Source of the DNA: Gammaproteobacteria bacterium | GTDB taxonomy: Bacteria > Pseudomonadota > Gammaproteobacteria > SZUA-152 | Direction: 5' to 3' | NCBI GenBank assembly: GCA_021647505.1 | Contig: JAKIUN010000002.1 | Location: forward strand, 1 to 54,157 | DNA: 54,157 nt | Part shown: in pieces, positions 31,582 through 46,680 of the stretch | Position numbering within the stretch: position 1 is the first letter of the stretch | Layout: each line of letters opens with the position of its first letter | Notes under the pieces: model-generated | Databases searched by the model: none | What the model was told of the DNA's origin: nothing | What the model saw: only the letters and a program-made list of their open reading frames with translations | Program-made: the position numbers and the translations under genes

Positions 31582-32010
31582 TCACGCTGGCAGAACCAGC
31601 ACAATTCGTCCCGCTATCAGGCTATTCCCCTCGGCACAAGCCCGAATATCGTATATTGCACCATTTTTATCGCTGAAAATACATTGGGCCTGGATTTGCA
31701 ACTCGGCCACGCCGGCATCAACATACGGGGCGAATAAGCGCAACTTCTTTACCGCCCCCAGATAAGCGGGGCGCGCTGCGTCAAGGCCGCTTTGCTGCAA
31801 GGCGGCATGAACCGCCGCAGCCTGCGCACCATATTCCACCAGCGTCACGGTATCCATCCGCCCATTTTCTATCAGCGGATTATCCGCCCGGCGATGACTC
31901 GTAGTAGTGGCGTTCAGGTAATGTTCGTCCCACTCTGTTACCTGGTCGAGCAGGCACATCGCCTCGCCGTGGGGAATAAGCCCGGCGATCTGTTGGCGCT
32001 GGATCAGCAT
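31582..32010 (-). CDS. ApeP-like 3-hydroxyacyl-ACP dehydratase (copy 1)
   Basis: A 142-residue hotdog-fold protein of the ApeP type. The N-terminal signature is LIPHGEAMCLLDQV (Pro13, His14), followed by MDTVTLVEYGAQAAAVHA, the helix of the fold. In aryl-polyene systems such a protein removes water from the 3-hydroxyacyl-ACP each cycle. Its ATG lies seven bases inside the end of the chain-length-factor-like gene. A second ApeP-like gene lies in the right arm (46217-46675); the two differ considerably, so they may act at different chain lengths or form a heteromer. Confidence 0.82.
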   Translation of the reverse strand: MLIQRQQIAGLIPHGEAMCLLDQVTEWDEHYLNATTTSHRRADNPLIENGRMDTVTLVEYGAQAAAVHAALQQSGLDAARPAYLGAVKKLRLFAPYVDAGVAELQIQAQCIFSDKNGAIYDIRACAEGNSLIAGRIVLVLPA

Positions 32011-32801
32011 GGCATTAGATCCACCGCCAGCATTCCACCATTGGGCGTACTGAAATGGAGCTGGCGGGTCTCGCACCGCGCTATAGCTCTCAACAGCGGC
32101 AGGCTGCGGGCAGCGGGATTACCGAGACGCACAGCCTCCAAGGCGATCTCTCCCATTTGTGATTCATCTTCTGATTCAGTGCCGGAATAGAGAGTTAAAG
32201 CAGCCAGACAGGCATCATCGGGCGCCGCGTCCAGTATCAGGGTAACAGCGAATGGATCCAGGATGGATCGCTCGGCCAGCAAAGGTGGCGGGGGTGGAAT
32301 ATCATAAACCGCCAGCAGAGCTGGCAATCCCTCCAGCATCACCTGGGTGGCGGCCTCCAACAACCCTGCACTGAAGCTACCATCATAGCCGGCCAGACTG
32401 ATGGAGGGCGCGCGGGAACCGGTGGCAATACTCCAGTAGCCGGCGGCAGCATTATGAACCGAGTTGTGGAATTGGGTGGGAGATACGGCCCGCTGAGGCT
32501 GTCGCAAGGCCCGACATATCTGGTCAATGATGGGATAATCCCCGCCAGAGGAAGCAAACACCCCGGCCAATGAACCAGGATCCAGGTTGCTGTTATCGAG
32601 TGCATCCTCACAGGCACGAAAGGCCAATCGCACCACCTCGGTAGCCCGGCGTCGTTCATTGGCTGGCAATAGTCGCGGTTTGTAACGGTCAAGTGGTTGG
32701 GAAAGGTAGGGCCGTTCACCTGTCAAGACCCGGCACCCCTTAGCCCAACCCTCCAGACCCGGCGCAGCCAGACCAACAGCACTTATGTAGACCTTGATCA
32801 T
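32004..32801 (-). CDS. Chain-length-factor-like ketosynthase (ApeC type)
   Basis: A 265-residue protein resembling only the N-terminal two thirds of a ketosynthase. Aligned with the adjacent KS, the active-site cysteine is replaced by Asp140 (SISLAGYDGSFS), and the two catalytic histidines lie in the missing C-terminal part. FHNSVHNAAAGYWSIATG is typical of the beta-ketoacyl synthase chain-length-factor family. ApeC forms a heterodimer with the KS ApeO in characterised aryl-polyene systems. The ATG at 32801 overlaps the KS stop by four bases, consistent with equal production. Confidence 0.85.
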   Translation of the reverse strand: MIKVYISAVGLAAPGLEGWAKGCRVLTGERPYLSQPLDRYKPRLLPANERRRATEVVRLAFRACEDALDNSNLDPGSLAGVFASSGGDYPIIDQICRALRQPQRAVSPTQFHNSVHNAAAGYWSIATGSRAPSISLAGYDGSFSAGLLEAATQVMLEGLPALLAVYDIPPPPPLLAERSILDPFAVTLILDAAPDDACLAALTLYSGTESEDESQMGEIALEAVRLGNPAARSLPLLRAIARCETRQLHFSTPNGGMLAVDLMPC

Positions 32802-34000
32802 GCTGAGCACCCCAGCACCAGACTACAGTTGCTGCCACCGAAACCAAAGGAGTTAGTCAGCACAGTACGCAGGCGCTGGTAGCGATGCTCCAACAACACA
32901 TCGGCATCCACCGTTGGATCCAGGATCTCGCTGTTCAAGGTGCAAGGCATAAAGCCATGCTCTATGCATAACAGGCCCAGTGCGACTTCGACGATACCGG
33001 CGGCCCCCAGGGTGTGTCCCGTCCAGCCCTTGGTGGAACTGCACGGAGTTTGGCCACCAAACAAACTGACCACGGCCCTGGATTCGGCCATGTCATTGGC
33101 CGGAGTACCGGTGCCATGCAGATTGATGTAGTCGATATCCCGGGGCTCCAGCCCAGCCCTGGCCAAAGCCGCCGCCATTGCCGCCCGCGCGCCCGCGCCC
33201 TGAGGATGAGGCGATGACATGTGGTAGGCGTCGCTACTTTCTCCGTATCCCAGCAAGGCGTGCCCCGTCTGTCCCTTTTCAGGCTGGAGCAGGGCAAACC
33301 CACCCGCTTCGCCAATAGAGATTCCATTGCGATCCACGTCAAAGGGACGGCACTTTTCTGCAGCCACCAGTTGCAAGGCGTTGAATCCGTACAAGGTGGT
33401 TAAACAAAGCGTATCGACACCACCCACCACAGCGGCATCACAGAGCCCGCTTTGGATAGCCCGATAGGCGGAAGCAAATACCTTGGCGCTGGAGGAGCAG
33501 GCGGTGGAAACCGTAACGCTGAGTCCTTCGAGACCCAGGTAGCGGCGCACAAAATCAGCCACGGCATAGGTATTGTGAGTGGTGGAATAATGGTACCACT
33601 GCGGTAGCGGCTCGCTTTCCGGATCGATACCGAGATAGGCCTGTTCGGTCTGATGGATACCCGAGGTGCTGGTGCCCATGAAAAGACTAACACGCGTGGC
33701 ACCATAGCGGCCTGTGGCGTCACGAACCGCCTCGGTAAATCCATCCTGCTCCAAGGCCAGCTGGGCCAGACGGTTATTGCGGCAGTCGTAGACAGCCCAC
33801 CGCTCATTCAGGGTAATGTCGTCAAGAGAGGCCACCTGGCCGACCCAGGTGTCAAGGTCGCCGATCTGGAAAAATTCACAGGGCGTCAGTCCGGAACGGC
33901 CATTCCGCAACCGCTGCCAATGGGTTTCACGCCCGGCACCCAAGGCCGAGGTCAGGGTGTAATCAGTGATCTGCAGAGGTTTTATCAAGCCAAAAGTCAT
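32798..34000 (-). CDS. Beta-ketoacyl-ACP synthase (likely ApeO-like)
   Basis: A 400-residue FabB/F-fold enzyme that condenses malonyl-ACP with the growing chain. The catalytic triad is intact: Cys168 in STACSSSAK, His295 in NLHGTGTP and His329 in KGWTGHTLGAAG. Directly followed by a cysteine-less partner, it is the best candidate for the active half of the KS-CLF heterodimer. I used the ATG at 34000; the upstream extension is a shadow of the acyltransferase gene. It overlaps the acyltransferase by 38 bases. The assignment to ApeO rather than ApeR rests on the neighbour. Confidence 0.88.
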   Translation of the reverse strand: MTFGLIKPLQITDYTLTSALGAGRETHWQRLRNGRSGLTPCEFFQIGDLDTWVGQVASLDDITLNERWAVYDCRNNRLAQLALEQDGFTEAVRDATGRYGATRVSLFMGTSTSGIHQTEQAYLGIDPESEPLPQWYHYSTTHNTYAVADFVRRYLGLEGLSVTVSTACSSSAKVFASAYRAIQSGLCDAAVVGGVDTLCLTTLYGFNALQLVAAEKCRPFDVDRNGISIGEAGGFALLQPEKGQTGHALLGYGESSDAYHMSSPHPQGAGARAAMAAALARAGLEPRDIDYINLHGTGTPANDMAESRAVVSLFGGQTPCSSTKGWTGHTLGAAGIVEVALGLLCIEHGFMPCTLNSEILDPTVDADVLLEHRYQRLRTVLTNSFGFGGSNCSLVLGCSA

Positions 34001-34877
34001 AGAAATTGAACCAATTATAGGGTGCCTGACTGATGTAGTGCTCCAGGCGATGAGCGTAGTGTCCCATAGCCTGAGCGATTTCTGCATCGCGCTGGCGGCG
34101 GGGGGCAGAGAGCCGTTCCGTCAGTAACTCAAAGTTAAGCTGATAACGATTGCCCCCCTGATAGAGCCCGAAGCAGAGAATTACCGGTGCTTTGAGTATC
34201 AATCCCAGCAACCACGGCCCTACGGGAAAATTCGCCTGCCCGCCGAGGAATTCGCAGTTCATCACCCGCTCGTCATGCCCTGCCCTGTCGGCCATAATGC
34301 CAATCAATTCACCGTTCTTTATTGCCCGATCCAGGGTCAGAGCCAGCACCGGTGCAGGCTGATTGGGGTCGATGATTGCCGCCGCCAACTCTGGATCCAA
34401 GGCGTCGATCAGCTCGGCTGCACGAGAGTTATGGTGGCGATCCATCAGAATACGAATTGGCAAGTCATGCTCTTTGACCGCCGGAACCCGCATCACATCA
34501 AAACTGCCGAGGTGGGAAACCAAGAGGATGCAGCCTTGCTTCCGGGAAGCATAACGCTGGAACAATTCGGCGCCATTGACCTGAATCTGGTAATTGTCAC
34601 AGCGCCCGGAGAGAAAAAACAAACGATCCACGGAAACCATGGCAAAAGTGTAGAAATGCCGCCACAGATCCAGCCACCCCGGCTTCCGCCCCAGTGCCCG
34701 AGCCAAATACTGGCGTGAAGCACGGCGGGCGGCGGTAGCCGTCAACAGAAAATAAAACACCACCGGGTGGAGCAATAACGTCATGAACCGTCGACCGAGA
34801 CGCAAGGCCAGCCACGCCAATAATGTCAGCATAAAGCGATTGCTTCGCTCTTTCTGTTCACGCCAGTGAGTATTCAT
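33963..34877 (-). CDS. LpxL-like acyltransferase
   Basis: A 304-residue inner-membrane acyltransferase of the lysophospholipid/lipid A late-acylation type. One or two hydrophobic segments lie at about 15-47. The HxxxxD catalytic pair is His122 and Asp127 in LVSHLGSFDVMR. In aryl-polyene clusters an acyltransferase of this kind is thought to build the lipid anchor or attach the polyene. It overlaps the ligase-dehydratase gene by four bases (ATGA). The true acyl donor and acceptor are not known. Confidence 0.82.
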   Translation of the reverse strand: MNTHWREQKERSNRFMLTLLAWLALRLGRRFMTLLLHPVVFYFLLTATAARRASRQYLARALGRKPGWLDLWRHFYTFAMVSVDRLFFLSGRCDNYQIQVNGAELFQRYASRKQGCILLVSHLGSFDVMRVPAVKEHDLPIRILMDRHHNSRAAELIDALDPELAAAIIDPNQPAPVLALTLDRAIKNGELIGIMADRAGHDERVMNCEFLGGQANFPVGPWLLGLILKAPVILCFGLYQGGNRYQLNFELLTERLSAPRRQRDAEIAQAMGHYAHRLEHYISQAPYNWFNFYDFWLDKTSADH

Positions 34878-36562
34878 AGTTGCTGCTCCCGAGACACATG
34901 CTCTGCTGCCACCAGTTCCACCACGCCCTTGCACACCAAGTCCGAGCGGCAATAGCAGGCAATGCTCAGACGTTGCAATGCCGGGTCGGAGTCCAGTTCC
35001 AGGCGGCAGTGATCGCCAGGATGGAGGCTATTGAGAAACTTCATCGATCTGACACTGCGTATCGTGTGACCAGGGTACTGGTTGTAAACGTGGGCAAAAA
35101 CCCATTGCAACAGCAACGCCCCAGGGACGATGGGTTGGCCTGGAAAATGGGCCGGAAAACATGGGTGCTGTGGCGGCACGGTAAATGAACGTGCAATCAC
35201 ATCAGTTTTTTTCAGTAGCTGTTGCAACACGGAGATAGAAAGCTTGCCGGTATCGTTACGAGGCAGGGCAGCGACTTTTTTGATCGGGCGGGGTAGAAAC
35301 ACCGGATCGACCCTTTGCGCCAATACTGCCCGGATAGCCTGCAGCGAAAGCCTGGATACGACCAACGCAGCAGGACGCCGGGGCCGCTTATCTTCCCGTC
35401 CCGCAACCCCGCCGGCCATGAAAACGACGCCGTCGTCCACCCCCTCAATGGTTAAAAGCTTGAGCGTAATGTCCGCCAACGAAGCCCGTTTACCACCGAC
35501 ATTGATCATATCCGACGAGCGCCCCAGGAGGCGGAACCGATGCCGGCCGACAAGTTCCAGGTGGTCTTCCACTTGCGCGATATCGGCAAGCTGTGGGCCT
35601 TGAGCATGGATCGCGCCATCGCTCGAGGTCTTGTCCATCAGCAGATTCATACCGTCCAGCAGGGTCCAGATATTATCGTTGATCGTTCGGCGAGTAGCCA
35701 TACTGCCTACCTCTGTGCAGCCGTAGATCTCTTCTACCGGAGCCTGAAACAGACTTTCCGCCTCCGCCGCCAGCTCCCTGGCCAGTGGTGCTGTTGCCGA
35801 TATCACTTTAGTCACCCTTGGCATCATCACATTGGCACCTACCATGGCCCGCAGATGTACCGGTGTCGTTACCAACAGCCGGGAGCCGGGCAAGGAAGCC
35901 AGCGTGGAGGCAATATCATCTGCATAGAATGGGTGGCGGGAGTCTATGATGCAGCCTCCCTGCAAGGCCATCATGAGCGTCATTTCCAGGCCGTACATAT
36001 GCTGCGAAGGCACGGTGGCAACAATAACCGGCCGCTCCCCTGGGGTCACGAACCGGGCTGCCAGCATTCTGCCGGTACCCACCAAGGTTCGCCACGGCTT
36101 TCGGTTTGGCGACGGCTTGCCGGTAGTCCCGGAGGTAAAGGCAATGGCTGCCAGCTGTTCACCTGCCAACCAGGGCAAGTCCGGCCCCGGCCCGCCGGCC
36201 CGAAATCCAATGTCAGGTGTTTCTGCCCGGAGATCCATGATCACCATCCCCGGCAGCGTCTCATCAGCGTCGACCACAGCACAACAACCTGGGTAATCGC
36301 CTACCACCTCCTCCAAGGTCTGCAATTGACGGTTGGGAGGCAACAGGTTGACCCCCCCGTTTACCAGCGCTGCGCAAAACACCAGGGCGAAATTATAGCG
36401 ATCCCGGCACAAATTGATAAGGTAAGGGACATCCGGCAGCCGCCGGGATAGGGCCACCACCCGAACGATGAAATTCTGCTGACTCACTCGCCGACCACAG
36501 CTGAACATCATCGGCGCCGCTGGCTGGTATGCGTGGATCAAGGGAATCTCATCGCTCTGCAT
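34874..36562 (-). CDS. Acyl/aryl-CoA(ACP) ligase fused to an ApeI-like dehydratase
   Basis: A 562-residue two-domain protein. Residues 1-450 form an AMP-binding ligase: FTSGTTGKP (142-150), YGCTEVGS (280-287), an LLGRSSDMINVGGKR hinge and the catalytic Lys440. Residues 455-560 form a hotdog dehydratase with FPAHFPGQPIVPGALL, His472 being the expected catalytic residue. The ligase is the ApeH-like activating enzyme that would load the hydroxybenzoate starter; the dehydratase half resembles ApeI. The domains are separate genes in some characterised clusters. No frameshift is involved; the frame is continuous. Confidence 0.88.
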   Translation of the reverse strand: MQSDEIPLIHAYQPAAPMMFSCGRRVSQQNFIVRVVALSRRLPDVPYLINLCRDRYNFALVFCAALVNGGVNLLPPNRQLQTLEEVVGDYPGCCAVVDADETLPGMVIMDLRAETPDIGFRAGGPGPDLPWLAGEQLAAIAFTSGTTGKPSPNRKPWRTLVGTGRMLAARFVTPGERPVIVATVPSQHMYGLEMTLMMALQGGCIIDSRHPFYADDIASTLASLPGSRLLVTTPVHLRAMVGANVMMPRVTKVISATAPLARELAAEAESLFQAPVEEIYGCTEVGSMATRRTINDNIWTLLDGMNLLMDKTSSDGAIHAQGPQLADIAQVEDHLELVGRHRFRLLGRSSDMINVGGKRASLADITLKLLTIEGVDDGVVFMAGGVAGREDKRPRRPAALVVSRLSLQAIRAVLAQRVDPVFLPRPIKKVAALPRNDTGKLSISVLQQLLKKTDVIARSFTVPPQHPCFPAHFPGQPIVPGALLLQWVFAHVYNQYPGHTIRSVRSMKFLNSLHPGDHCRLELDSDPALQRLSIACYCRSDLVCKGVVELVAAEHVSREQQL

Positions 36563-36565
36563 AAG

Positions 36566-37174
36566 TTAGCGTTTTCGAATATCGGCATTAACAACTATCT
36601 TGAGATAGTCCAAAAAACCGGGATGATCGTGATCCTGAAAGCGCCACTTGCGGTAAACAAACTCAGCCACGAACAATAGAACAACCAAGAGATAATTTAT
36701 AAAATTGGTGAACAAGGACCACTGCATGTTCGTGAGCAGCCACGGCAGTAAAGCCGACCACAAGGCCAGGACGGCAAAAAAAACCGTCCACATCAGGGTT
36801 ACGCCCCGGGTATAACGCCGCATTTGTGCAGACAAGGGGCCGCGCGCCCGCTCACCGATAGCGGTAACCAGAGGAACCTTACCCGGCAACAAGCTGTGCA
36901 AAAAAACGCCCCAGAACAGTAGTGGTATTACGACAGGTGGCAGATAAAGCAGGTAGATGGCAATATCCAGGTAACCAACCGTACAAAGCAGTACCAGAAC
37001 CAGAAAAAACAGCCCCCAGGTAAAACGGCTGCCTTGCCGCAACCCCGGTAGAAACAGTCCCAGGGCCAGCACTAGCAGGGCCAGAACCTGAATCACTGGC
37101 AGCTCCAGCCACACCGCCAAATGCACCAACAGCGGATAGCTCAGGATCAGCGCCACCGGCATCGCCGAGGTCAT
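36566..37174 (-). CDS. Small polytopic membrane protein of the pigment cluster
   Basis: A 202-residue protein with five or six hydrophobic segments (about 5-22, 24-45, 50-70, 74-93, 121-143, 148-170). It resembles the COG4648-type membrane proteins found in aryl-polyene clusters between the ACP and ligase genes. Its role is unknown. It starts four bases after the ACP stop and ends just before the ligase start, so it belongs to the same operon. Confidence 0.72.
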   Translation of the reverse strand: MTSAMPVALILSYPLLVHLAVWLELPVIQVLALLVLALGLFLPGLRQGSRFTWGLFFLVLVLLCTVGYLDIAIYLLYLPPVVIPLLFWGVFLHSLLPGKVPLVTAIGERARGPLSAQMRRYTRGVTLMWTVFFAVLALWSALLPWLLTNMQWSLFTNFINYLLVVLLFVAEFVYRKWRFQDHDHPGFLDYLKIVVNADIRKR

Positions 37175-37178
37175 AATC

Positions 37179-37454
37179 TCAGGACGGGTTATGGATGTGT
37201 GTGGTCAATGCACGCAGACAGGAAAATATCTGCCGGTTATTCTCATCATCCGCCTTCAACTGAACACCGTATTTCTGGGCGATGGCAAGGGACATTTCCA
37301 GGGCGTCAATGGAATCAAGACCCAAACTGTCCGGAGCATCGAATCCAAACAGGGGCGCCTCCGGAGCGATTTCGTCGGCACGAATATCTTCCAGATCCAG
37401 GGCGTTGACCAGTATCTCCGCCAACTCCTTTTCTTGTTGTGATTGCATACCCAT
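37179..37454 (-). CDS. Acyl carrier protein (left arm)
   Basis: A 91-residue acyl carrier protein. The phosphopantetheine attachment site is Ser48 in PDSLGLDSIDALEMS. Two ACPs are used in aryl-polyene synthesis; the other lies at 40671-40934. It is followed by the membrane protein and the ligase. A gap of 162 bp separates it from the methyltransferase gene upstream, which may hold a separate promoter. Confidence 0.9.
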   Translation of the reverse strand: MGMQSQQEKELAEILVNALDLEDIRADEIAPEAPLFGFDAPDSLGLDSIDALEMSLAIAQKYGVQLKADDENNRQIFSCLRALTTHIHNPS

Positions 37455-37616
37455 GATAACTACCGCTTAATGCCCGTTTTTTTGTACATCTCGGCTGTCT
37501 GTTCTAGCCCGAACACTTCACAAATTTGCGCAAAGACTACACCGAATATTGGTTTTACCGGCAAATGAAGAAATATTTCCTGTGGAATCAATTGACCAGC
37601 AATAATGGTGCATAAT

Positions 37617-38384
37617 TTATGAAATATCCACACTGGCTTCGGCGCCGCTGTATTCACTAAAAATCCCCAACACCACATGGCGCCGGGACTGCTGTAGACC
37701 CGCCTCAGTCATTGCTGCCAGAATGGTCGACGGAGGGACACACTGCTCAATGGTATCCCAATAATAACGCATCAATTCCTGGGCCTCACTGCTGCGTCGA
37801 AACAGGCGTGTCAGCGTAGGAACAACACCTTTCATATAAAATTTGAGTAATAACCTGGGTAATACGCGTTCGGGTCGGGTGATTTCCAGCAATAAAATCT
37901 TCCCTCCTGGCTTCAATACCCGCCGATACTCCGCAAACAGGGCATGCAGATCAGCCACATGACGAAGCGCATAACCCATGGTCAGGCGATCAAATGTATC
38001 ATCGGCAAATGGCAATGCCTCTCCCAAACCTTGGGTCACATTACACACCCCCAAGGTTTTCGCTTCGCCGAGCATACCTTTACTCGGATCCAGGGCTACC
38101 ACCAACCCCTGACCTTGGACAATATTCTGGGCCAGATAGGCCACCAGCCCCGTCCCCGAACCGACATCCAAAACCTGCATGCCCGGTTTCAGGCCGGATC
38201 GCTCCAGGGCTTGGCGTCGATACCGTTCCCCGGAGCCAAAACTCATGACGTTGGTAATCCAATCATAATGCTTTGCCGACGAATCGAACATCTCATCGAC
38301 CCGCCTGCGGCGCTCATTTTCATCCGTGTAATACTCCGAGAGAATCGGATGAGGGGCCACACGCTCTTTGTTTTGGATTTTCAC
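37617..38384 (-). CDS. UbiE-like SAM-dependent methyltransferase
   Basis: A 255-residue class I methyltransferase resembling UbiE/MenG: MQVLDVGSGTGLVAYLA is motif I, followed by VALDPSKGML, LPFADDTFDRLTMGYALRHV and LKPGGKILLLEITRPE. It starts with GTG at 38384 with GGAAAG before it. It is first in the left arm, so it most likely methylates the aryl head group of the polyene (such a methyl group is known in aryl polyenes), though a quinone substrate cannot be excluded by sequence alone. Confidence 0.82.
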   Translation of the reverse strand: MKIQNKERVAPHPILSEYYTDENERRRRVDEMFDSSAKHYDWITNVMSFGSGERYRRQALERSGLKPGMQVLDVGSGTGLVAYLAQNIVQGQGLVVALDPSKGMLGEAKTLGVCNVTQGLGEALPFADDTFDRLTMGYALRHVADLHALFAEYRRVLKPGGKILLLEITRPERVLPRLLLKFYMKGVVPTLTRLFRRSSEAQELMRYYWDTIEQCVPPSTILAAMTEAGLQQSRRHVVLGIFSEYSGAEASVDIS

Positions 38385-38656: not shown

Positions 38657-38658
38657 GT
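38621..38658. repeat. Remnant of MITE termini
   Basis: The sequence starts ACTAGG and ends CAGCCCCTAGT. The right-hand 11 bases match exactly the right end of the 272-bp element at 49093-49364, and the left end matches its first six bases. It looks like a copy with nearly all its interior deleted. It abuts the GTG start of the chorismatase gene. Confidence 0.5.
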
Positions 38659-39691
38659 GCTTACGACAAAACTAACGGACCAGATTTCAAGGATTTCCGT
38701 GGTACTGCCAAACCAATCATTCCAACTGCCGCCAATAGTGGCCTGTAGTTATTCGAACCAGCCCCCAAACACGCTTCTAGAAAGCGATGATGTACTGGCG
38801 GTGGTCGGTTTCGGACACCACAGTGCACCCACAGGACGGTCTCGCCATTTCAACACCGGCTTGCCGGTTCTCGGCAAACCTCTCTCCGAAGTCTGGCGCA
38901 GTCACTCAGCGGTTGAACACGGCATCGATGATCATTGCTACTGGTCAGCGAACGATGAGTTGATGTTTCTCGGATTGTGGATCAATGAGAGCCATTATCC
39001 CGATCTCAAAACGGCGGTGTTCGAGTCCTACACGACCTTGCTGCAAACACTTCGGGAGCGAAACTACCCCCATCTGCTCCGGGTCTGGAATTATCTTCCC
39101 CGGATCAACCACGGCAATAACGACAGCGAGCGCTATAAACAATTTTGCCTCGGTCGCCACGAGGCATTCAACCGCTACCAGCAACACCATTATCCGGCCG
39201 CCACCGCTATTGGCCATAGCGGTGGCGATATTGTGATCTACCTGATCGCAGCCCGCCATGCCGGCCCCCAGCACTTTGAAAACCCCCGCCAAATGAGTGC
39301 TTTTTGCTACCCCCGGGAATATGGCCCCAAGAGCCCCTCTTTTGCCCGGGCATCGATGCTGCAAAGTCACGGCGAAAGACAGCTCTATATATCAGGAACC
39401 GCAAGTATTCACGGCCATCAGTCCCGGCACCCGGGAAATTTTCACGGCCAGGTGGGCGTGACTTGTGAAAACATTGCCACATTGCTGCAACACGTTGCCA
39501 GCCAACTCCGACTGACCGCAACGCCAAGCCTGGAACTGATAAAAGTCTATCTCCGCAACCCCCAGAATCTGGCTGCGGCCGAAACCGCCATCGAGCAATA
39601 TTTCGGCCCAGAGGTGCCGGCACTGTTTCTTCAAGGCGATATTTGCCGCCAGGAACTGCTGGTGGAAATCGACGGCATGTGCCGATTTTAG
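38657..39691 (+). CDS. XanB2-like chorismatase (hydroxybenzoate synthase)
   Basis: A 344-residue chorismatase resembling XanB2/FkbO/Hyg5. Such enzymes split chorismate into a hydroxybenzoic acid (3- or 4-hydroxybenzoate in XanB2) and pyruvate. Family landmarks are VVGFGHHSAP, YPHLLRVWNYLPRINHGN, the QMSAFCYPREYGPKSPSFARA segment and LYISGTASIHGHQSRHPGNF. It supplies the aromatic starter for the polyene. The only in-frame start after a stop at 38633 is GTG at 38657, without a ribosome-binding site and at the edge of a repeat remnant, so expression may be altered. Confidence 0.88.
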   Translation: MLTTKLTDQISRISVVLPNQSFQLPPIVACSYSNQPPNTLLESDDVLAVVGFGHHSAPTGRSRHFNTGLPVLGKPLSEVWRSHSAVEHGIDDHCYWSANDELMFLGLWINESHYPDLKTAVFESYTTLLQTLRERNYPHLLRVWNYLPRINHGNNDSERYKQFCLGRHEAFNRYQQHHYPAATAIGHSGGDIVIYLIAARHAGPQHFENPRQMSAFCYPREYGPKSPSFARASMLQSHGERQLYISGTASIHGHQSRHPGNFHGQVGVTCENIATLLQHVASQLRLTATPSLELIKVYLRNPQNLAAAETAIEQYFGPEVPALFLQGDICRQELLVEIDGMCRF

Positions 39692-39705
39692 TGTCGTAAC
39701 GAGCG

Positions 39706-40512
39706 ATGGCAGATATACGCAATCATGGCGACAATAACCTGCTCGGCTCCATTGGCTACGCATGGCGATTGCTGGCCACCGGCTTCAGCTTCATGCTCTT
39801 TGGCATCGGTGGCGCCCTCTTGTCTGTCGTGCTGTATACGGTTTCCCACCTGATCCCCATGAGCAGTGATCGAAAGCTGGCATTTATCCGTGGCACAATT
39901 TCCAGAACGCTCAGTATTTACCTGCTTTTCCTCCGCCTGTGTGGCTTGCTTAGCTATGAGATCCATGGCCGTAAATACATCAAGCCCGGCGGTCAACTGA
40001 TCATCGCCAATCATCCCTCCCTGCTGGATGTGGCATTTCTGATCTCGCTCATCAAGCAGGCGGATTGTGTGGTCAAGGCGAGCCTCTGGCGCACGCCCCT
40101 CACTCGGGGCCCGGTAAGCACGGCCAAATACATAAGAAATGATTCAAAACAGTTAATCCAGGATTGCGTGCAATCCTTACACCAAGGGAACTCCCTGGTC
40201 GTATTTCCCGAGGGAACCCGCACCCAGCCGGGCGAACCATTGAAGTTCCATCGTGGTGTCGCCAATGTGGCCCTGATGGCGGAAAAGGACATCACACCTA
40301 TCACCATAAACTGCGAACCCGCCACCTTGCTCAAGAACCAAAAGTGGTATCAGATTCCCAGGCGCCCGCCGCACTATACAATCCGTATCCTGCCGGACAT
40401 CGCCATCGGCCCCCATTTGGCCATGGCAGCCATGCAAAGCCAAAAAGCACGACGCCTCAACCGGGACTTGATGGATTTTTTCACGGCCCGCACCACTGGG
40501 CAGAATGACTGA
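39706..40512 (+). CDS. PlsC-like 1-acylglycerol-phosphate acyltransferase
   Basis: A 268-residue membrane-associated acyltransferase with an N-terminal hydrophobic stretch (about 18-50), the NHxxxxD motif (Asn102, His103, Asp108 in ANHPSLLDVAF) and VVFPEGTRTQPG. The family acylates lysophosphatidic acid or related acceptors. With the LpxL-like enzyme and the glycosyltransferase it probably forms the lipid anchor of the aryl polyene. It follows the chorismatase by 14 bp. Confidence 0.85.
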   Translation: MADIRNHGDNNLLGSIGYAWRLLATGFSFMLFGIGGALLSVVLYTVSHLIPMSSDRKLAFIRGTISRTLSIYLLFLRLCGLLSYEIHGRKYIKPGGQLIIANHPSLLDVAFLISLIKQADCVVKASLWRTPLTRGPVSTAKYIRNDSKQLIQDCVQSLHQGNSLVVFPEGTRTQPGEPLKFHRGVANVALMAEKDITPITINCEPATLLKNQKWYQIPRRPPHYTIRILPDIAIGPHLAMAAMQSQKARRLNRDLMDFFTARTTGQND

Positions 40513-40623
40513 AATGTACCAGTGACAAACAGCCTCATGCCACGACACGGTGAAAGCAAGGGCATTATTTGCTATGATGCTCGGCTGGATACGATACCCA
40601 GAACAACCATTAAAAAACCGCAC

Positions 40624-40629
40624 TATAAT
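40624..40629 (+). promoter_or_regulatory. Candidate -10 element upstream of the right-arm ACP
   Basis: A perfect TATAAT lies 42 bases before the ACP start in the 158-bp gap after the PlsC-like gene. The expected -35 place (around 40601) has no good match. An internal promoter here would allow the ACP-onward genes to be made without the chorismatase. Confidence 0.3.
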
Positions 40630-40670
40630 GGCGGGTTTACCTCTACATAATAAGTAAAACTGGTTTTATT

Positions 40671-40934
40671 ATGCATACGAAAGAATCGATATACGAGCAT
40701 TTAAAGAACATCATGGTGGAGCTTTTTGAAATCGAGGCCGATACGATTTCCCTTGACGCCAGGCTCTACGAGGAACTGGATATCGACAGCATTGATGCCG
40801 TGGATATGATCATAAAACTGAAAGACTTGACCGGAAAAAAAATGCAGCCCGCAGATTTCAAGAATGTGCGCACGGTGCAGGATGTCGTGGACGCCGTCTA
40901 TGCCCTGGTCAACAATGACACTCCCAAGCAGTGA
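40671..40934 (+). CDS. Acyl carrier protein (right arm)
   Basis: An 87-residue acyl carrier protein. The attachment site is Ser40 in YEELDIDSIDAVDMI. It overlaps the downstream dehydratase by four bases (GTGA). It differs clearly from the left-arm ACP, so each may serve a different step, such as starter loading and chain extension. Confidence 0.92.
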   Translation: MHTKESIYEHLKNIMVELFEIEADTISLDARLYEELDIDSIDAVDMIIKLKDLTGKKMQPADFKNVRTVQDVVDAVYALVNNDTPKQ

Positions 40935-41317
40935 TTGCTACACCGACCAATAACTTACGCCCCGACAACCGAACCGACCCTATCATATTGCAGCAATGTA
41001 TCGGGGGAGATGAGGCCAAGTTCTCACTCCAAATCCCCGCTGATCTCATTTATTTTTCGGATCATTTCCCCGACCACCCTATACTTCCGGGGGTAGTTCA
41101 AACAAAATGGGCAATGGATCTGGCCAGGCAACTACCACTACCTGATGCGTTTTTAGAAGGCTTCTCGGCAATGACAAAACTGAAATTCATGCGCCTGATT
41201 ACACCCGGAAGCCAGCTTACCCTGCAATTAAAGGTATCACCATCGGGTAAATCACTGAATTTTCGTTTTTTCGACGACAAGGGCGACTACTCTTCCGGCC
41301 AACTAAACTTTAAGTAG
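40931..41317 (+). CDS. ApeI-like 3-hydroxyacyl-ACP dehydratase
   Basis: A 128-residue hotdog protein with FSDHFPDHPILPGVVQTKWA; His45 is the expected catalytic residue. It resembles ApeI and the dehydratase half of the ligase fusion in the left arm. The GTG start overlaps the ACP stop by four bases, so the two are translated together. It is one of four dehydratase domains in the cluster. Confidence 0.84.
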   Translation: MIATPTNNLRPDNRTDPIILQQCIGGDEAKFSLQIPADLIYFSDHFPDHPILPGVVQTKWAMDLARQLPLPDAFLEGFSAMTKLKFMRLITPGSQLTLQLKVSPSGKSLNFRFFDDKGDYSSGQLNFK

Positions 41318-41323
41318 TCCGCC

Positions 41324-42082
41324 ATGTTCAAGCCTTGCATCATTATTCCTGCGTACAACCACCACCAGCATATTCACAGCGTAATTGACGGACTTGGACA
41401 AGACATTCCCTGCCTGATTGTCGACGACGGCAGCGCCTCACCCTGCCGAGAGGTTCTTCAGGATATCACCCGTAACCGACCCTGGGTAACACTTATTCGA
41501 CTACAGCAGAATCAGGGGAAAGGGGTTGCCGTGACCACTGGACTAAGGCATGCCCACCAGCAAGGATTCAGCCATGCGTTGCAAATCGATGCCGACGGCC
41601 AGCACGACACCAATGACCTCCCTCGCTTCCTGTCCAAGGCCAAAAGCCACCCCCAAGCGGTGATCGCGGGCGTGCGGCGTTACGAGGAAATGCCACCCAA
41701 GCGGCGTTACGGACGGATGATTACCGATTTCTGGGTATGGATAAATACCCTTTCCTTCATGATTAAAGACTCCATGTGTGGTTACCGTCTTTATCCATTG
41801 ACGGAGACCATACCCCTGATATCCAGCACGGCAGTGGGCCGCCGAATGGATTTTGATACCGATATCCTGGTGCGACTCTATTGGCGTGGCATCACCATCA
41901 AGCAATTGGAAACCCGCATACGCTATCACCACGACAGTATCTCTCACTTCGACTTACTACGAGACAACCTGAGAATTTCAAAAATGCATACCCGCCTTTT
42001 CTTCGGCATGCTGATCAGACTGCCTACCCTGGCAGCGCGAACCTGGAGGCGCTCAGACAAACATGCTCAGCACAGAAACTGA
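41324..42082 (+). CDS. Family 2 glycosyltransferase
   Basis: A 252-residue GT2 enzyme of the DPM1-like branch without obvious C-terminal membrane helices: IIIPAYNHHQHI, LIVDDGSASP, QGKGVAVTTGL, and the QIDADGQH metal motif, then DSMCGYRLYP. Aryl-polyene clusters commonly have such an enzyme, sometimes fused to an acyltransferase, to add a sugar to the lipid anchor. It starts six bases after the dehydratase and overlaps the thioesterase by 20 bases. Confidence 0.86.
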   Translation: MFKPCIIIPAYNHHQHIHSVIDGLGQDIPCLIVDDGSASPCREVLQDITRNRPWVTLIRLQQNQGKGVAVTTGLRHAHQQGFSHALQIDADGQHDTNDLPRFLSKAKSHPQAVIAGVRRYEEMPPKRRYGRMITDFWVWINTLSFMIKDSMCGYRLYPLTETIPLISSTAVGRRMDFDTDILVRLYWRGITIKQLETRIRYHHDSISHFDLLRDNLRISKMHTRLFFGMLIRLPTLAARTWRRSDKHAQHRN

Positions 42083-42467
42083 AATCATCATCCCCTTTCA
42101 CGATGTCGACCCCATGCAGGTAGTCTGGCATGGCCGCTATGTGAAATATTTTGAAACCGCCCGATGTCAGTTGCTTGAGAGTTTCGATTACGGTTATGAG
42201 CAAATGTTTGAATCCGGTTATGCATGGCCGGTGGTCGATATGCGTATCAAATACGTCAAACCGCTGCGATTTAACCAAAGAGTCGTCGTGGAAAGCCAGT
42301 TGGTGGAATGGGAGTATCGGCTAAAAATCAAGTATCGAATTCGTGATGCTGACAGTGGTGAGACCCTGAGCAAAGGTTATACCATCCAAGTAGCCGTAGA
42401 CATGGAGACTCAGGAAATGTGCCTGGAATCCCCTCCCGCGCTCAAAAAAAAGTTAGGCGAAACATGA
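42063..42467 (+). CDS. Acyl-CoA/ACP thioesterase (YbgC/4HBT type)
   Basis: A 134-residue hotdog thioesterase with the 4-hydroxybenzoyl-CoA thioesterase signature HDVDPMQVVWHGRYVKYFE, where Asp16 is the likely catalytic residue. It matches the position and type of the ApeK thioesterase, which may release or edit polyene chains. It overlaps the preceding glycosyltransferase gene by 20 bases and the following LolA-like gene by four. Confidence 0.87.
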   Translation: MLSTETEIIIPFHDVDPMQVVWHGRYVKYFETARCQLLESFDYGYEQMFESGYAWPVVDMRIKYVKPLRFNQRVVVESQLVEWEYRLKIKYRIRDADSGETLSKGYTIQVAVDMETQEMCLESPPALKKKLGET

Positions 42468-43162
42468 GCCACCCGACCCTTACCTTCGTCATCACATTGG
42501 CAATGCTCTGCTCGACGGCAATACTCCCCCAACGGGTTTATGCCGATGACACCGCTGTGGCAAGCGAACAGATGTCCCGGCAAATGCGCCAGCACCAGGT
42601 CGTAAAAGGCCGTTTTGAACAATGGCGCAATTTGACGGGCATCCCCCTCCCGATCCGTTCCAGTGGTCGCTTCATCTATTGGCGCAAACACGGCCTGTAT
42701 TGGGAAACCCAAAAACCTATCTCGCAGGCCTCGACCTTTACCTCCGACGCTATCATCCACTGGCAGTCCGACACCGTCACACGACAAGCGGACAGAATCT
42801 CATCACCGGTTCAGAAACAAATCAGCCGCATCCTGCTAGCAGTCTTCGGCGGCGATCTTCGAGCACTGGAAAAACTGTTCGACAGCCGTTGGAGTTCCGC
42901 TGCGGAACACTGGACAGTAGACCTGACCCCTACTGCAACGACGATCAAACAGGTGATCCAAAAAATCACTCTCAGCGGTGGGGATTACATCAACAGTCTC
43001 AGTCTTGACGCCAGCAACGGCGACACCACTCAGATCCACTTTACCCATATCAGCGCATTCGCCCACCCAGCAACAGATGATTGCCGGTTTTTTGATCTGG
43101 ATTTCTCGTCGTGCCCCAGTAATGAAACCGGCACTCCACCATCCAGTCAAATGGAACCATGA
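42464..43162 (+). CDS. LolA-like periplasmic carrier
   Basis: A 232-residue protein with a signal peptide (about 1-27, ending YADD). The mature part resembles the outer-membrane lipoprotein carrier fold: VVKGRFEQWRNLTGIPLPIRSSGRFIYWRKHGLYWET. In aryl-polyene clusters such a protein (ApeL type) is thought to carry the lipid-linked pigment across the periplasm. The ATG at 42464 overlaps the thioesterase stop by four bases; a longer reading would lack a signal peptide. Confidence 0.84.
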   Translation: MSHPTLTFVITLAMLCSTAILPQRVYADDTAVASEQMSRQMRQHQVVKGRFEQWRNLTGIPLPIRSSGRFIYWRKHGLYWETQKPISQASTFTSDAIIHWQSDTVTRQADRISSPVQKQISRILLAVFGGDLRALEKLFDSRWSSAAEHWTVDLTPTATTIKQVIQKITLSGGDYINSLSLDASNGDTTQIHFTHISAFAHPATDDCRFFDLDFSSCPSNETGTPPSSQMEP

Positions 43163-45615
43163 GGCCCGGCAAGCCAACGGAAATACGGGACGCCCACACC
43201 TTCACCCTGATCTACAGGGGCCTGGCAGCGGCATTTGTGATCCTTTGTTTGATCGGTGGTTTTCTGTTGAGTGACATTATCAGAAGCGGGCTGATCATTG
43301 ACACCGATCTCCGTGCCCTACTGCCAGAAACCGATGAAAACAGCCTCTCCCGCCACGCTGAAACCCGCTTACTCGACCGACTGGGCAACACAATTATCTT
43401 GTTGGTTGGGGCAACGACGCCGGAAACGGCAGCAAAGGCGGCCGACTTTGGCAGTACCTGGCTGCACCACCGCACATCACTGCGCGTGGATCCAGACTCG
43501 CCCCTGAATCACAACCCGGAACGGCTAATCCAGCAAATGAAAGATCACCGCTTTCACCTGCTCACACCGCAACAGCGCCAGCTGCTTGAAAACGACGCCG
43601 TAGAGACTCTCATCGACAAGGCCTGGGCTTCGATCCTGGGGCCACAGAGCTGGGCCCGGATCACCTCCACACAGGAAGACCCCCTCGCCCTGTTCGACGA
43701 CTTTGTCGAGTGGCTCAGTCAGACCGGCGGCACTATCAATATCATCCGGCATGGAGAATACCCACTGTTCAACACACCCCAAAGGCCCGGTTGGTTTTTC
43801 GCCCCTCTCTATATCAACACCGGTCAACAAACATTCCAACTCGATGCCCAGGCCAATACTGTCGACACCCTGACCCGCTTACAAGCAGAACTTGAGCAGC
43901 GTTTTGCGGGGATACAAACCCTGAAATCCGGTGTTATCTTTCATGCCGCAGAAGCGGCCCAGCGCGCGCAGAGAGAGGTAAGCTTGATTGGCCTGGGCTC
44001 ACTACTCGGCATCATCGCATTATTCATCATCGCCTTTCGTTCACTGACTCCCCTGGCGATGAGTCTGCTCTCGGTTCTTTTCGGCGGCCTGATCGCCTTT
44101 TCCGTCGTTCACTATCTCTACAACGGTCTGCATATCATTACCCTGGTTTTTGGTGCCGCCCTGATTGGTGTCTCGATCGATTACTCACTGCACTATTTCA
44201 CCAAGCGATTCTCCGCCGGCACATCCGGCCATCGCTTTGCCAGTCTGCGATCGATTTTCCCAGCCATCGGCCTGGGACTCCTCACCAGCGTCATCGGCTA
44301 CGGCAGCCTGAGCCAAGCGCCCCTGCCCGGCCTCAATCAGGTCGCCCTCTTTTCCGTCACCGGGCTCATTGCCGCTTGGCTATTCGTAGTTGTCGTCTAC
44401 CCCTGGGTGGGAACGCGTAATCCCTCACCACTGCCCACATACCTCATCCGCTGGGCTATATTTCCCCAGCGCTGCTGGCAAGGCCTGAGACGATGGCATC
44501 TGCACCCGGCCACATTCCTGCTGGGCCTGGGTGCCTTAGGTGCACTAAGCGCCTACTTGACGGCAACCACAAGCGACAATATCCGCATTCTTCACACCCC
44601 GTCGACGGCCTTACTGGAAGAAGAAAAAGAACTAAGCGCAATCATCAACAGCTATGCCGGCAATCAGTTTTTCATCGTCACCGGTTCGGCTGAACAACAG
44701 GTATTGCAAAATGAGGAGGCATTCCGCCCAAGGCTCGATGAGCTGATTGAAGCCGGAGCCATTACCGGCTACCAGTCCATCACTCGTTTCCTTCCCTCCA
44801 TCGCCCGCCAGGAAGGCGATTACCGCTTACAGAAACTCAAACTCTATCATGACGGCGCCGGCGATAAACCTGGCCCGGTACCCCGTTTTATGGAGGCCCT
44901 GGGGTTTGACGCCGTGATGGTAGAACAGCTGTTGCAGCGCTTCACCGCTGACAAAAACAAATATCTGACCCCGGAAAACTGGCCGGAGTTACAGGCATCG
45001 GGGCTTGACCTGCTCTGGCTTGGCCAGATCGATGATAAGTTTGGCACATTGATCCTGCTGCAAGGGCTTAAAGATACCGCCGCCCTGGCAGCATCGACAG
45101 CCCGCTACGATGAAGTGATATTTGTTGATAAGGTCAGCGAACTTGGCCATATCCTGGAACAACAGCGGCATTCGGCAACGGCGATGCTCGCCCTGGCGTA
45201 TGGCGCTGTCATCATCCTGTTGATCCTGCGGTACCGGCGAGTCGACGCGATGCTACTGGCGCTGGTGCCTCTAGTCTCGACAGTACTCACCATTAGCCTG
45301 CTCTCCAGCATCGGGATGCCTATCGGTCTGTTTCATCTGTTTGCCATGTTCCTTATTCTCGGGCTGGGCATGGACTACAGCATCTTCATTTATGAATCAC
45401 CAACGGCAGAAACGGCCAGCCATGCAGCGATATTGTTCTCCGCCATCACCAGTTGCCTGTCATTCGGCCTGCTGGCACTGAGCAGCACACCCATGGTGCA
45501 ATTCTTCGGTGCCACAATATTCATCGGCAGCCTTCTTAATCTGATCCTGGCCCCCGCCGTCGCCCGCCTTCCGCCGCAACACCGTTTGCATAAACAAAGC
45601 ACGGGAGGACTCTGA
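43159..45615 (+). CDS. MMPL/RND-family exporter
   Basis: An 818-residue inner-membrane exporter with the twelve-helix RND plan: one N-terminal helix (about 13-36), a periplasmic domain, a block of five helices (about 272-420), another single helix (about 455-475), a second periplasmic domain, and the last five helices (about 680-805). GVSIDYSLHYF and GLGMDYSIFIYE supply the paired aspartates of the proton relay. It corresponds to ApeM, which probably lifts the aryl-polyene lipid from the inner membrane. It overlaps the LolA-like gene by four bases. Confidence 0.88.
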   Translation: MRPGKPTEIRDAHTFTLIYRGLAAAFVILCLIGGFLLSDIIRSGLIIDTDLRALLPETDENSLSRHAETRLLDRLGNTIILLVGATTPETAAKAADFGSTWLHHRTSLRVDPDSPLNHNPERLIQQMKDHRFHLLTPQQRQLLENDAVETLIDKAWASILGPQSWARITSTQEDPLALFDDFVEWLSQTGGTINIIRHGEYPLFNTPQRPGWFFAPLYINTGQQTFQLDAQANTVDTLTRLQAELEQRFAGIQTLKSGVIFHAAEAAQRAQREVSLIGLGSLLGIIALFIIAFRSLTPLAMSLLSVLFGGLIAFSVVHYLYNGLHIITLVFGAALIGVSIDYSLHYFTKRFSAGTSGHRFASLRSIFPAIGLGLLTSVIGYGSLSQAPLPGLNQVALFSVTGLIAAWLFVVVVYPWVGTRNPSPLPTYLIRWAIFPQRCWQGLRRWHLHPATFLLGLGALGALSAYLTATTSDNIRILHTPSTALLEEEKELSAIINSYAGNQFFIVTGSAEQQVLQNEEAFRPRLDELIEAGAITGYQSITRFLPSIARQEGDYRLQKLKLYHDGAGDKPGPVPRFMEALGFDAVMVEQLLQRFTADKNKYLTPENWPELQASGLDLLWLGQIDDKFGTLILLQGLKDTAALAASTARYDEVIFVDKVSELGHILEQQRHSATAMLALAYGAVIILLILRYRRVDAMLLALVPLVSTVLTISLLSSIGMPIGLFHLFAMFLILGLGMDYSIFIYESPTAETASHAAILFSAITSCLSFGLLALSSTPMVQFFGATIFIGSLLNLILAPAVARLPPQHRLHKQSTGGL

Positions 45616-45616
45616 A

Positions 45617-46201
45617 GTGCTCCAGTCACGACCTTGTTACAGTCGCGTTCCCTGGCTCTGCGCCATTCTGGGCGGGCTTATGCTACTGGCAGGTTGTGCA
45701 GTGCCATTTGGCGCAGTCCAGCGGGATTTCCAGCCATTGCCACCGGATACCCTCGAACAATCAACTACTGTCTTGCTGAAACTTGACAGTCACCAGGGCG
45801 ATATCCGTCATCACTGGGAGGCCGTGTTAAACGTGGACGCAGACCGGATCGACCTGATCATCCTGGGGCCCCTGGGCCAACGCCTGGCAACCCTGCGCTT
45901 CAATGATCAGCAACTAATGGTCGAACGTGGCGGCCCCCTCCCCTTCGACTCATCCATCGAAAAACTACTCGGGGAGCTGCAAATGATATTCTGGCCTCTG
46001 GCGGTACTGAACGCTAACGAATGGAACCAGGACTGGCATTTTTCAGAACAAAAAAATATCCGCTACGTGTACTATCAACAACAGCGGGTAGCGGAAATCC
46101 ATCGACGCTCAACATCAGTCTGGAGCGGTGATTTTGACTATGTCAGTAGAATCTCTGATTACCGCCTGAACATACGATCCAGCGAGCTGGATCGTCCTTG
46201 A
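45617..46201 (+). CDS. DUF3261 outer-membrane lipoprotein
   Basis: A 194-residue lipoprotein: signal peptide with lipobox LLAGC (Cys27) and a LolB-like mature domain with FNDQQLMVERGG. DUF3261 proteins (ApeN type) are found next to the exporter in aryl-polyene clusters and may receive the pigment at the outer membrane. It starts with GTG, one base after the MMPL stop, preceded by GGGAGG. Confidence 0.82.
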   Translation: MLQSRPCYSRVPWLCAILGGLMLLAGCAVPFGAVQRDFQPLPPDTLEQSTTVLLKLDSHQGDIRHHWEAVLNVDADRIDLIILGPLGQRLATLRFNDQQLMVERGGPLPFDSSIEKLLGELQMIFWPLAVLNANEWNQDWHFSEQKNIRYVYYQQQRVAEIHRRSTSVWSGDFDYVSRISDYRLNIRSSELDRP

Positions 46202-46216
46202 TACCGGGGGCATTTC

Positions 46217-46675
46217 TTGGCAACCTCAAAACTGTTCAATTCCATTTCCGATCTGCTGCCCCATCGTGGCAAAATGATTCTGCTGGATCGTATCGAATCA
46301 TGGGGTGAAGACTATCTGAAAGCAGCAGTGCTACACCGTGACGACAACCTGTTCAGCGACCCGGATGGCAATGTGCCTGCATGGGTAGGCATCGAATACA
46401 TGGCTCAGGCGATATCTGCACTGGCGGGAATTCACGCACTGCAAAAAGGCCAGCCCGTGCGTATCGGTCTCCTGCTGGGTACGCGAAAATATACTTCCCG
46501 GGTGGCAAGTTTCCAGCGCAATGAGAAGCTCATCATCCACGTTGAACAAATTTTTATAGACGAAAACCATCTCGGCGCCTTTGATTGCACAATTCATTCA
46601 GATAGACTCATAGCCGAGGCTCAGATCAAAGCCATACAGCCGAATAACATCGAAGACATCATCAAAAGCCGCTAA
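46217..46675 (+). CDS. ApeP-like 3-hydroxyacyl-ACP dehydratase (copy 2)
   Basis: A 152-residue hotdog dehydratase of the ApeP type, with LLPHRGKMILLDRIESW (Pro15, His16) and WVGIEYMAQAISALAGIHA. It starts with TTG at 46217 with GGGGG upstream. It lies before the ketoreductase and the second KS, the usual ApeP-ApeQ-ApeR order. It is clearly different from copy 1 (31582-32010), which lies beside the CLF. Confidence 0.86.
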   Translation: MATSKLFNSISDLLPHRGKMILLDRIESWGEDYLKAAVLHRDDNLFSDPDGNVPAWVGIEYMAQAISALAGIHALQKGQPVRIGLLLGTRKYTSRVASFQRNEKLIIHVEQIFIDENHLGAFDCTIHSDRLIAEAQIKAIQPNNIEDIIKSR

Positions 46676-46680
46676 GTCTT

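Follow-up and report, generated by a model that had tools for sequence, protein, structure and literature searches.

A divergent gammaproteobacterial pigment cluster with aryl-polyene dehydratase pairs of two origins

A stretch of 54,157 nucleotides from a gammaproteobacterium of the SZUA-152 lineage (contig JAKIUN010000002.1, assembly GCA_021647505.1), referred to here as the window, carries a divergent pigment cluster of 17.5 kb (positions 31122-48629), with a phosphopantetheinyl transferase gene adjoining it. The cluster holds two sets of the aryl-polyene (APE) dehydratase proteins ApeI and ApeP, and we are highly confident both of its anatomy and that the two sets have separate origins. 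A first-pass annotation had proposed two ApeP-type and two ApeI-type domains, with one acyl carrier protein (ACP), one ketosynthase (KS) and one dehydratase of each type on each arm. All four domains were found where it had placed them, and the division between the arms is exact by Pfam and by comparison with Escherichia coli. We call the minus-arm copies m and the plus-arm copies p:

31582..32010, minus strand: m-ApeP, the Glu-donating half of the putative minus-arm dehydratase, xanthomonadin lineage (by profile, tree, residue and model)
34874..36562, minus strand: aryl-ACP ligase (about residues 1-450) fused to m-ApeI (about residues 453-555), the putative His-donating half (by profile, residues, model and tree)
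40931..41317, plus strand: p-ApeI, the His-donating half of the putative plus-arm dehydratase, E. coli lineage (by Pfam, profile, tree and residue)
46217..46675, plus strand: p-ApeP, the Glu-donating half of the putative plus-arm dehydratase, E. coli lineage (by Pfam, profile, tree and residue)

The copies of each type differ strongly, as had been noted, with 30% identity over 112 columns between the ApeP proteins and 27% over 105 columns between the ApeI domains. Pfam recognizes p-ApeP as ApeP-like (E 5.6e-17) and p-ApeI as ApeI-like (E 4.3e-10); m-ApeP (142 residues) has no Pfam match at E 0.01, and the C-terminus of the ligase matches ApeI-like (E 0.0045) and FabA (E 2.1e-4), both under the curated cut-offs. 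In a whole-genome Pfam search at E 0.001 the ApeI-like and ApeP-like models each caught one of the two copies, so that database annotation alone would undercount these domains. On profiles built from related loci, with the window copies among the profile rows, m-ApeP scored 154 bits and p-ApeP 142 bits, and the ApeI domains scored 96 bits (ligase C-terminus) and 94 bits. Iterated hot-dog profiles of m and p converged; clade-specific profiles were rebuilt from the trees, and assignment to m or p is tree-led. The AlphaFold model of m-ApeP has a mean predicted local distance difference test (pLDDT) score of 93.5, and its top match among solved structures is 6QSR chain B, the ApeP of the Xenorhabdus doucetiae ApeI:P complex (E 7.6e-10, template modelling (TM) score 0.85). 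In the model of the fused protein the ligase is followed, from about residue 453, by further strands and a helix, the helix preceding the strands from residue 455. A hot-dog fold is indicated for the halves, for m-ApeP by its structural match, for the p halves by sequence and for m-ApeI by this model. Chance matches or decayed copies are ruled out by the profile scores together with the ratios of nonsynonymous to synonymous substitution (dN/dS) given below.

To see which catalytic residues each domain carries, 65 ApeI and 69 ApeP rows were aligned to the genome's own FabZ, and the His and Glu columns that we take to be its catalytic residues were scored. The His column is occupied by His in 65/65 ApeI rows and in none of the 69 ApeP rows (33 of which are gapped there), and the Glu column by Glu in 69/69 ApeP rows and 9/65 ApeI rows; the two ApeI domains of the window have Gln and Lys in that place. 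None of the four window proteins joins His and Glu in one chain as FabZ does, and the NCBIfam FabZ models give P0001, P0003 and P0004 at most 31 bits against cut-offs of 113-155. Since none of the four has a whole FabZ-like site, the domains are most likely half-enzymes that make up two complete composite dehydratases. To count them as four dehydratases is therefore misleading, because neither window type has a complete FabZ-type site alone. Each of the four retains its own catalytic residue, His in ApeI and Glu in ApeP, and no copy shows the loss of catalytic residues that the first-pass annotation had named as a refuting result. Of the several explanations first offered, that of heteromers gains from these residues, which fit an ApeI:ApeP heterodimer with one composite site per pair. 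Such an ApeI/ApeP heterodimer with a single active site is described for the APE dehydratase of Acinetobacter baumannii (PMC8041823).

The phylogenies point to two origins. Both the ApeI tree (65 rows) and the ApeP tree (69 rows) divide into an m and a p clade, with support of 100/99 and 100/100, respectively; the minus-arm copies fall in the m clade, of xanthomonadin type, and the plus-arm copies in the p clade, of E. coli type. These rows were drawn from 99 ApeI and 124 ApeP hits at a score floor of 70, the loci being hand-picked for spread and one FabZ-like row of locus L075 being left out by hand. The name xanthomonadin type refers to gene order and kind, and not to sequence, as compared with the published arc cluster. 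When the window copies were forced together, the resulting trees were rejected by the approximately unbiased (AU) test, with p values of 5e-25 for ApeP and 5e-10 for ApeI. A recent tandem duplication of one ApeI/ApeP pair, which has nothing in its favor beyond the shared fold, is thus rejected by the AU tests and by the position of the copies in opposite deep clades, and we regard it as next to impossible.

The other enzymes divide in the same way. Their trees are of a quick kind, with Shimodaira-Hasegawa-like approximate likelihood ratio (SH-aLRT) support only, and the xanthomonadin-type sets used in them, as in the divergence test below, were hand-picked. A split supported at 100 puts the minus-arm KS and ligase on the side of the xanthomonadin type. 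For three other proteins, the ketoreductase (KR), the MMPL exporter and the ApeD-type acyltransferase, the trees set the xanthomonadin-type rows apart in one clade (100), and the window copy stands on the E. coli side. Because the dehydratase, KS, ligase, KR and transporter trees all split by arm, the cluster is read as a merger, in which each arm appears to have kept the dehydratase pair of its own lineage. Among the possibilities raised in the first-pass annotation, a merged cluster of two origins is thus strongly supported.

Similar double clusters occur in other genomes. When 84,980 species genomes were scanned with the half chain-length factor (half-CLF) and the best 80 of at least 580 confirmed relatives were kept, many of the loci had the order ACP, G, ligase, ApeI, acyltransferase, LolA, MMPL, KS, half-CLF, ApeP, KR, and a search for ApeR in 369 genomes of the class found it in 31 besides that of the window, mostly in E. 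coli-type clusters. The double set of the window (type A) is present on a single contig in G057/G013 (metagenome-assembled genome D100SM.bin.11, of the same family as the window), G058 (Cellvibrio UBA8526), G059 (Hydrocarboniphaga RYN_594), G060 (Steroidobacter) and G230, and is split over contigs in G061 and G209; in G230 the two blocks run in the same direction instead of diverging, each block being intact. The second build (type B; G185 and G375) is a cluster of E. coli type, having ApeO, ApeC and ligase of its own, that has gained an m-type ApeI and an m-type ApeP. Eight double clusters, six of type A and two of type B, contributed both copies to the trees, and in each of them one copy falls in the m clade and the other in the p clade; the copies of G230 and G209 are m and p by clade profile. 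Listings of open-licence PMC papers showed no description of a cluster with two ApeI:ApeP pairs.

The type-A clusters, together with a Nevskia type described below, form one group in the KS (96) and ligase (93) trees. The KR, ApeI and ApeP trees divide type A into two sets, the six loci that include the window and the pair L048/L049, and holding the eight type-A p-ApeP proteins together is not rejected (AU p 0.37); type A may stem from one merger or from two. Modules seem to have been exchanged between the two pathway lineages more than once, as other hybrids exist: in five loci (L195, L197, L198, L204 and L227) a KS/CLF of xanthomonadin type, or other core genes, are combined with an ApeI and ApeP solely of E. 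coli type.

In the survey of 369 genomes, with thresholds set by eye (p-ApeP at least 90 bits, m-ApeP at least 99) and genome lists transcribed by hand, p-ApeP was found in 32 genomes, m-ApeP in 52 and both in six, including the window's. The two occur in one cluster in at least four of the six (G000, G185, G230 and G375), and in G209 they are split by contig ends. In G262 an m-type cluster (L222) and a p-type ApeP accompanied by ApeA- and ApeD-like genes (L223) lie on different contigs; these may be two separate pigment clusters or the pieces of a double one.

Could the halves of the two lineages combine with each other? As they are complementary, m-ApeI with p-ApeP or p-ApeI with m-ApeP could in principle build a site, giving up to four heterodimers of graded specificity. 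However, no mixed single pair was seen in the 81 loci that have exactly one of each half (58 m/m and 23 p/p; three of the 81, L178, L179 and L058, are pieces of double clusters), and in the window the m and p halves are only about 27-30% identical. Such partner swapping is therefore improbable in our estimate. The 81 loci come from 121 with any ApeI or ApeP, a number that includes overlapping pieces of one contig (identical frames counted once) and the doubtful row L040 (46 bits). Five further loci are likewise unmixed (L221, L222 and L229 m/m; L226 and L227 p/p).

Both pairs look functional from their retained catalytic residues and low dN/dS. Between the window and G057 the ratio is 0.14 for m-ApeP, 0.16 for m-ApeI, 0.20 for p-ApeI and 0.21 for p-ApeP, values that are rough because dS is 0.9-1.4 for these four genes; twelve other genes tested gave 0.07-0.20. 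This bears on the possibility that the two pairs are redundant leftovers of the merger, doing the same job, with one of them on its way out. Either pair alone serves other clusters, and loss of one pair can apparently be seen in nature. Among eight named genomes picked for a divergent layout at the half-CLF locus, p-ApeI and p-ApeP are both present in five and both absent from the other three (two Nevskia and one Sinobacteraceae), which also lack the thioesterase. Since these Nevskia-type three group with the double clusters L048 and L049 (KS 96, KR 84, ligase 94, with the inner fork at 96 in both KS and KR), the joint absence of p-ApeI, p-ApeP and thioesterase reads as joint loss. Against redundancy, all four halves of the window retain their catalytic residue under low dN/dS, genomes labelled Cellvibrio, Hydrocarboniphaga and Steroidobacter still carry the double set, and a second double build exists in G185 and G375. 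We give redundancy substantial weight, short of an even chance, and hold it to be as likely as a division of extension rounds between the pairs.

How the pairs may be used depends on the rest of the cluster and the adjoining transferase gene, which comprise the following:

30253..31110, plus strand: 4'-phosphopantetheinyl transferase (Pfam ACPS, E 2.1e-19), which probably arms the ACPs
31122..31541, minus strand: small protein of no known family, without a Pfam match; probably a cluster member
32004..32810, minus strand: half-CLF, like Lysobacter ORF16 and ArcJ (Pfam Ketoacyl-synt_2; alignment)
32798..34087, minus strand: KS partner of the CLF, ApeO/ArcK type (Pfam; 269 bits to E. coli ApeO; tree)
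33963..34952, minus strand: LpxL-like acyltransferase, matching part of E. coli ApeJ
36566..37174, minus strand: ApeG-like membrane protein (28.8 bits to E. coli ApeG)
37179..37454, minus strand: minus-arm ACP, ApeE type (Pfam PP-binding; 54.7 bits to ApeE, 18.1 to ApeF)
37617..38384, minus strand: UbiE-like methyltransferase, with a putative role in the pathway
38657..39691, plus strand: chorismatase of the FkbO/Hyg5 group (Pfam, E 1.8e-36), presumably making the hydroxybenzoate starter
39706..40512, plus strand: lysophospholipid acyltransferase, ApeD type (Pfam; E. coli match)
40671..40934, plus strand: plus-arm ACP, ApeF type (83.9 bits to ApeF, 15.9 to ApeE)
41324..42082, plus strand: glycosyltransferase 2 (Pfam), matching part of E. 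coli ApeJ
42063..42467, plus strand: thioesterase, ApeK type (Pfam; E. coli match)
42419..43162, plus strand: LolA-like carrier, ApeL (Pfam; E. coli match)
43159..45615, plus strand: MMPL/RND exporter, ApeM (Pfam; E. coli match; tree)
45617..46201, plus strand: DUF3261 lipoprotein (Pfam, E 3e-21), of the ApeN family by annotation, without a phmmer match to ApeN
46681..47403, plus strand: ketoreductase ApeQ, the sole KR of the cluster (E. coli match; tree)
47403..48629, plus strand: ketosynthase ApeR (548 bits to E. coli ApeR)

The sole KR is on the plus arm and the sole aryl ligase on the minus arm, which makes the arms interdependent; it is therefore probable that both pairs work in a single polyene pathway primed with hydroxybenzoate. 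This also bears on the idea of two products, in which each arm would make a different acyl chain, such as a polyene head on one arm and a second unsaturated acyl group on the other. The idea gains from the separate ACP, KS and dehydratase of each arm and from the thioesterase of the plus arm, but there is only one ligase and one KR for the two arms. Moreover, the ACPs, KSs, ligase, KR, thioesterase and exporter all have a single counterpart each in the E. coli cluster, which is described in passages of PMC8253772 as making one aryl polyene. We think two products about as improbable as partner swapping.

Taken as a whole, the cluster is probably best explained as a stable chimera of two aryl-polyene pathways with two complete composite dehydratases. 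Pair m (m-ApeI with m-ApeP) would have been inherited with the KS, half-CLF and ligase of the xanthomonadin/arcuflavin lineage, and pair p (p-ApeI with p-ApeP) with ApeR, ApeQ, the thioesterase, the ApeF-type ACP and the exporter of the E. coli APE lineage. In the pathway that we propose, the ligase would load chorismate-derived hydroxybenzoate onto an ACP, and KS-CLF and ApeR would extend the chain, with the single KR carrying out the reduction and an ApeI:ApeP heterodimer the dehydration. Within each pair, the His of ApeI and the Glu of ApeP would form one site, dehydrating the 3-hydroxyacyl-ACP after each reduction. By analogy with the E. coli account (PMC8253772), the product would reach the outer membrane through the LolA, MMPL and DUF3261 proteins. 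Three points are inferred: pairing within each lineage, m with m and p with p; action of both pairs on the same chain; and a division of the extension rounds between them.

If the rounds are divided, the p pair may act in the early, ApeR-driven rounds, and the m pair on chains held by the ApeE-type ACP and KS-CLF. The link between p-ApeP and ApeR is close: p-ApeP is present in 29/32 genomes with ApeR and in 3/337 without it. ApeR itself is present in only 5/52 m-ApeP genomes, all five being double clusters, and the other 47 have no p-ApeP except G262; a weaker ApeR-like KS match (181-211 bits) lies near L075, L103 and L121. For A. baumannii, passages of PMC8358021 describe ApeR as working efficiently on short chains and boosting the early phase, and ApeO-ApeC as completing the chain and binding ACP1 tightly. 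In addition, the m pair has diverged faster in the subclade of the window: in its six loci the distance of the pair from the xanthomonadin type exceeds the value expected from KS, CLF and ligase by 3.3-5.0 standard deviations, as taken from 31 xanthomonadin-type loci, which suggests specialization. Ten positions of m-ApeP that are conserved at 70% or more in 67 other loci (three Nevskia-type loci among them) are replaced in all six loci of the subclade; three of them, 65, 69 and 73, are spaced four apart on the modelled helix 54-76 that carries Glu59.

Several observations weigh against this division of labor. Either pair alone suffices elsewhere, E. coli-type clusters running ApeR and ApeO-C with p only and xanthomonadin-type clusters having m only; Nevskia HOG36 retains ApeR and an ApeF-type ACP with only the m pair, and the five loci mentioned above combine m-type core genes with the p pair alone. 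At the genome level m is not enriched with p across the class survey (6/369, Fisher p 0.43). The accelerated divergence is absent from the double clusters L048 and L049, as it is from the three Nevskia-type loci, and the six accelerated loci, being one clade, amount to one event. Some of the ten m-ApeP positions are changed in L048 or L049 too (position 65 in L048), only one subclade-specific position was found in m-ApeI, and the high dS values blur the dN/dS ratios on which function of both pairs is read. Specialization by chain length, as originally suggested, therefore has indirect support (the m-pair divergence, the m-ApeP changes and the link of p-ApeP to ApeR) set against these counter-examples and is not shown; we hold this assignment of rounds as a tentative proposal, with rather less than an even chance of being right.

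In its fullest form the proposal would be a two-stage polyene synthase, with an early dehydratase (p with ApeR) and a late one (m with KS-CLF), built at least twice through the merging or import of pairs, and with the binding helix of the m pair remodelled in the clade of the window. This is more doubtful still. If true, it would have no known precedent, judged by listings of open-licence PMC papers, as a dehydratase relay in a type II polyene pathway. Whatever the outcome, clusters that keep both deep-branching versions, beside relatives with one version, are a natural experiment on dehydratase specificity, and they inform on heterodimer fidelity between homologous half-enzymes and on the fusion of two type II pathways. 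They are well suited to the question of why both dehydratases are kept in one cell. In E. coli, loss of pigment is described for most core biosynthetic mutants (PMC8253772).

The fusion of ligase to m-ApeI is, by the reading frames of relatives, a recent loss of a stop codon and not a defining feature. In G013/G057 the two are separate genes with a TAA between them; the window reads through that point with a sense codon and is shorter by 12 bases, so that a single frame results. The two reading frames are separate in 7/7 other type-A double clusters. An ancient fused design is thus rejected for this lineage, its nearest relative, G013/G057, having two genes split by TAA. Elsewhere, ApeI and ligase share one long frame in eleven loci of the ApeR survey (L182, L186-L188, L190, L192-L194, L200, L202 and L207).

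Some further genes deserve mention. Relatives of the phosphopantetheinyl transferase adjoin other clusters, e.g. L224 and L218. The small protein at 31122-31541 has a signal-like N-terminus by eye, and relatives of it lie near the aryl polyene clusters L224, L188, L195 and L197; the one in G230 (L224, 86 bits) adjoins m-ApeP. The UbiE-like methyltransferase (37617-38384) may be a head-group methylase; it is below the cut-offs of the 25 NCBIfam families shown, and phmmer gave no match between it and E. coli ApeB. On NCBIfam TIGR04444 the chorismatase scores 232 bits, under the cut-off of 325. Beside the plus-arm KS lies a B12-binding radical SAM protein (49360-50925, minus strand), below the cut-off of all 22 NCBIfam families matched, the best being ApyD and BchE. 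A protein at 26414-27832 (minus strand) has a C-terminal MauG-like stretch (36 bits, well under cut-off) and no Pfam match at E 0.01. The G+C content is 43-48% at 8001-10000 and 22001-26000, which may be acquired segments, and 47% at 50001-52000, the rest being mostly 50-62%.

Among known systems, the plus arm resembles the APE clusters of E. coli CFT073, X. doucetiae and A. baumannii, with matches to ApeD, F, I, J (in part), K, L, M, P, Q and R. The matched proteins of the E. coli CFT073 ApeA-R set have one best counterpart each in the window, save ApeJ, which matches two genes by different parts, and ApeI, which matches both ApeI domains; E. coli ApeP matches only the plus-arm copy, and ApeA, ApeB and ApeN have no match in the window. 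The window has the ApeR, ApeF, ApeQ and p-type ApeI/ApeP of this type, a DUF3261 protein like ApeN and the predicted ApeI:ApeP composite site, and it shares with A. baumannii the fusion of ApeI to the ligase (ApeH there), as reported in passages of PMC8041823. However, it lacks ApeO/ApeC and ApeH of E. coli lineage, its half-CLF reaching only 29 bits to ApeC. E. coli-type clusters have one ApeI and one ApeP, whereas the KS, CLF, ligase and second pair of the window come from another lineage, and the window has its own chorismatase, which is absent from the E. coli gene table. The statement in the first-pass annotation that characterized systems use one of each dehydratase type holds for E. coli; for Azoarcus (arcI, arcS) and Lysobacter (ORF8, ORF12) two dehydratase genes each are reported, the types of arcI and arcS being assigned here by gene order.

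The minus arm corresponds to the Azoarcus arc cluster in the kinds and order of arcV-U-T-S-R and arcK-J-I, a match by order and kind and not by sequence, and the gene order of the half-CLF relatives follows the kinds arcV-U-T-S-R-Q-P and arcK-J-I-H; a chorismatase is present in the window as in arcB/XanB2 (Table 1 of PMC3949708). Compared with the loci colinear with arc, the window thus has the KS and half-CLF, m-type ApeI/ApeP and chorismatase of the xanthomonadin/arcuflavin type; by the KR and MMPL trees, however, that type has another KR and exporter lineage than the window. Finally, the double clusters of G185 and G375 share with the window one m and one p pair, but differ from it in having a whole E. 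coli-type set, with its own ApeO/ApeC and a ligase of E. coli lineage, to which only m-type ApeI and ApeP have been added.

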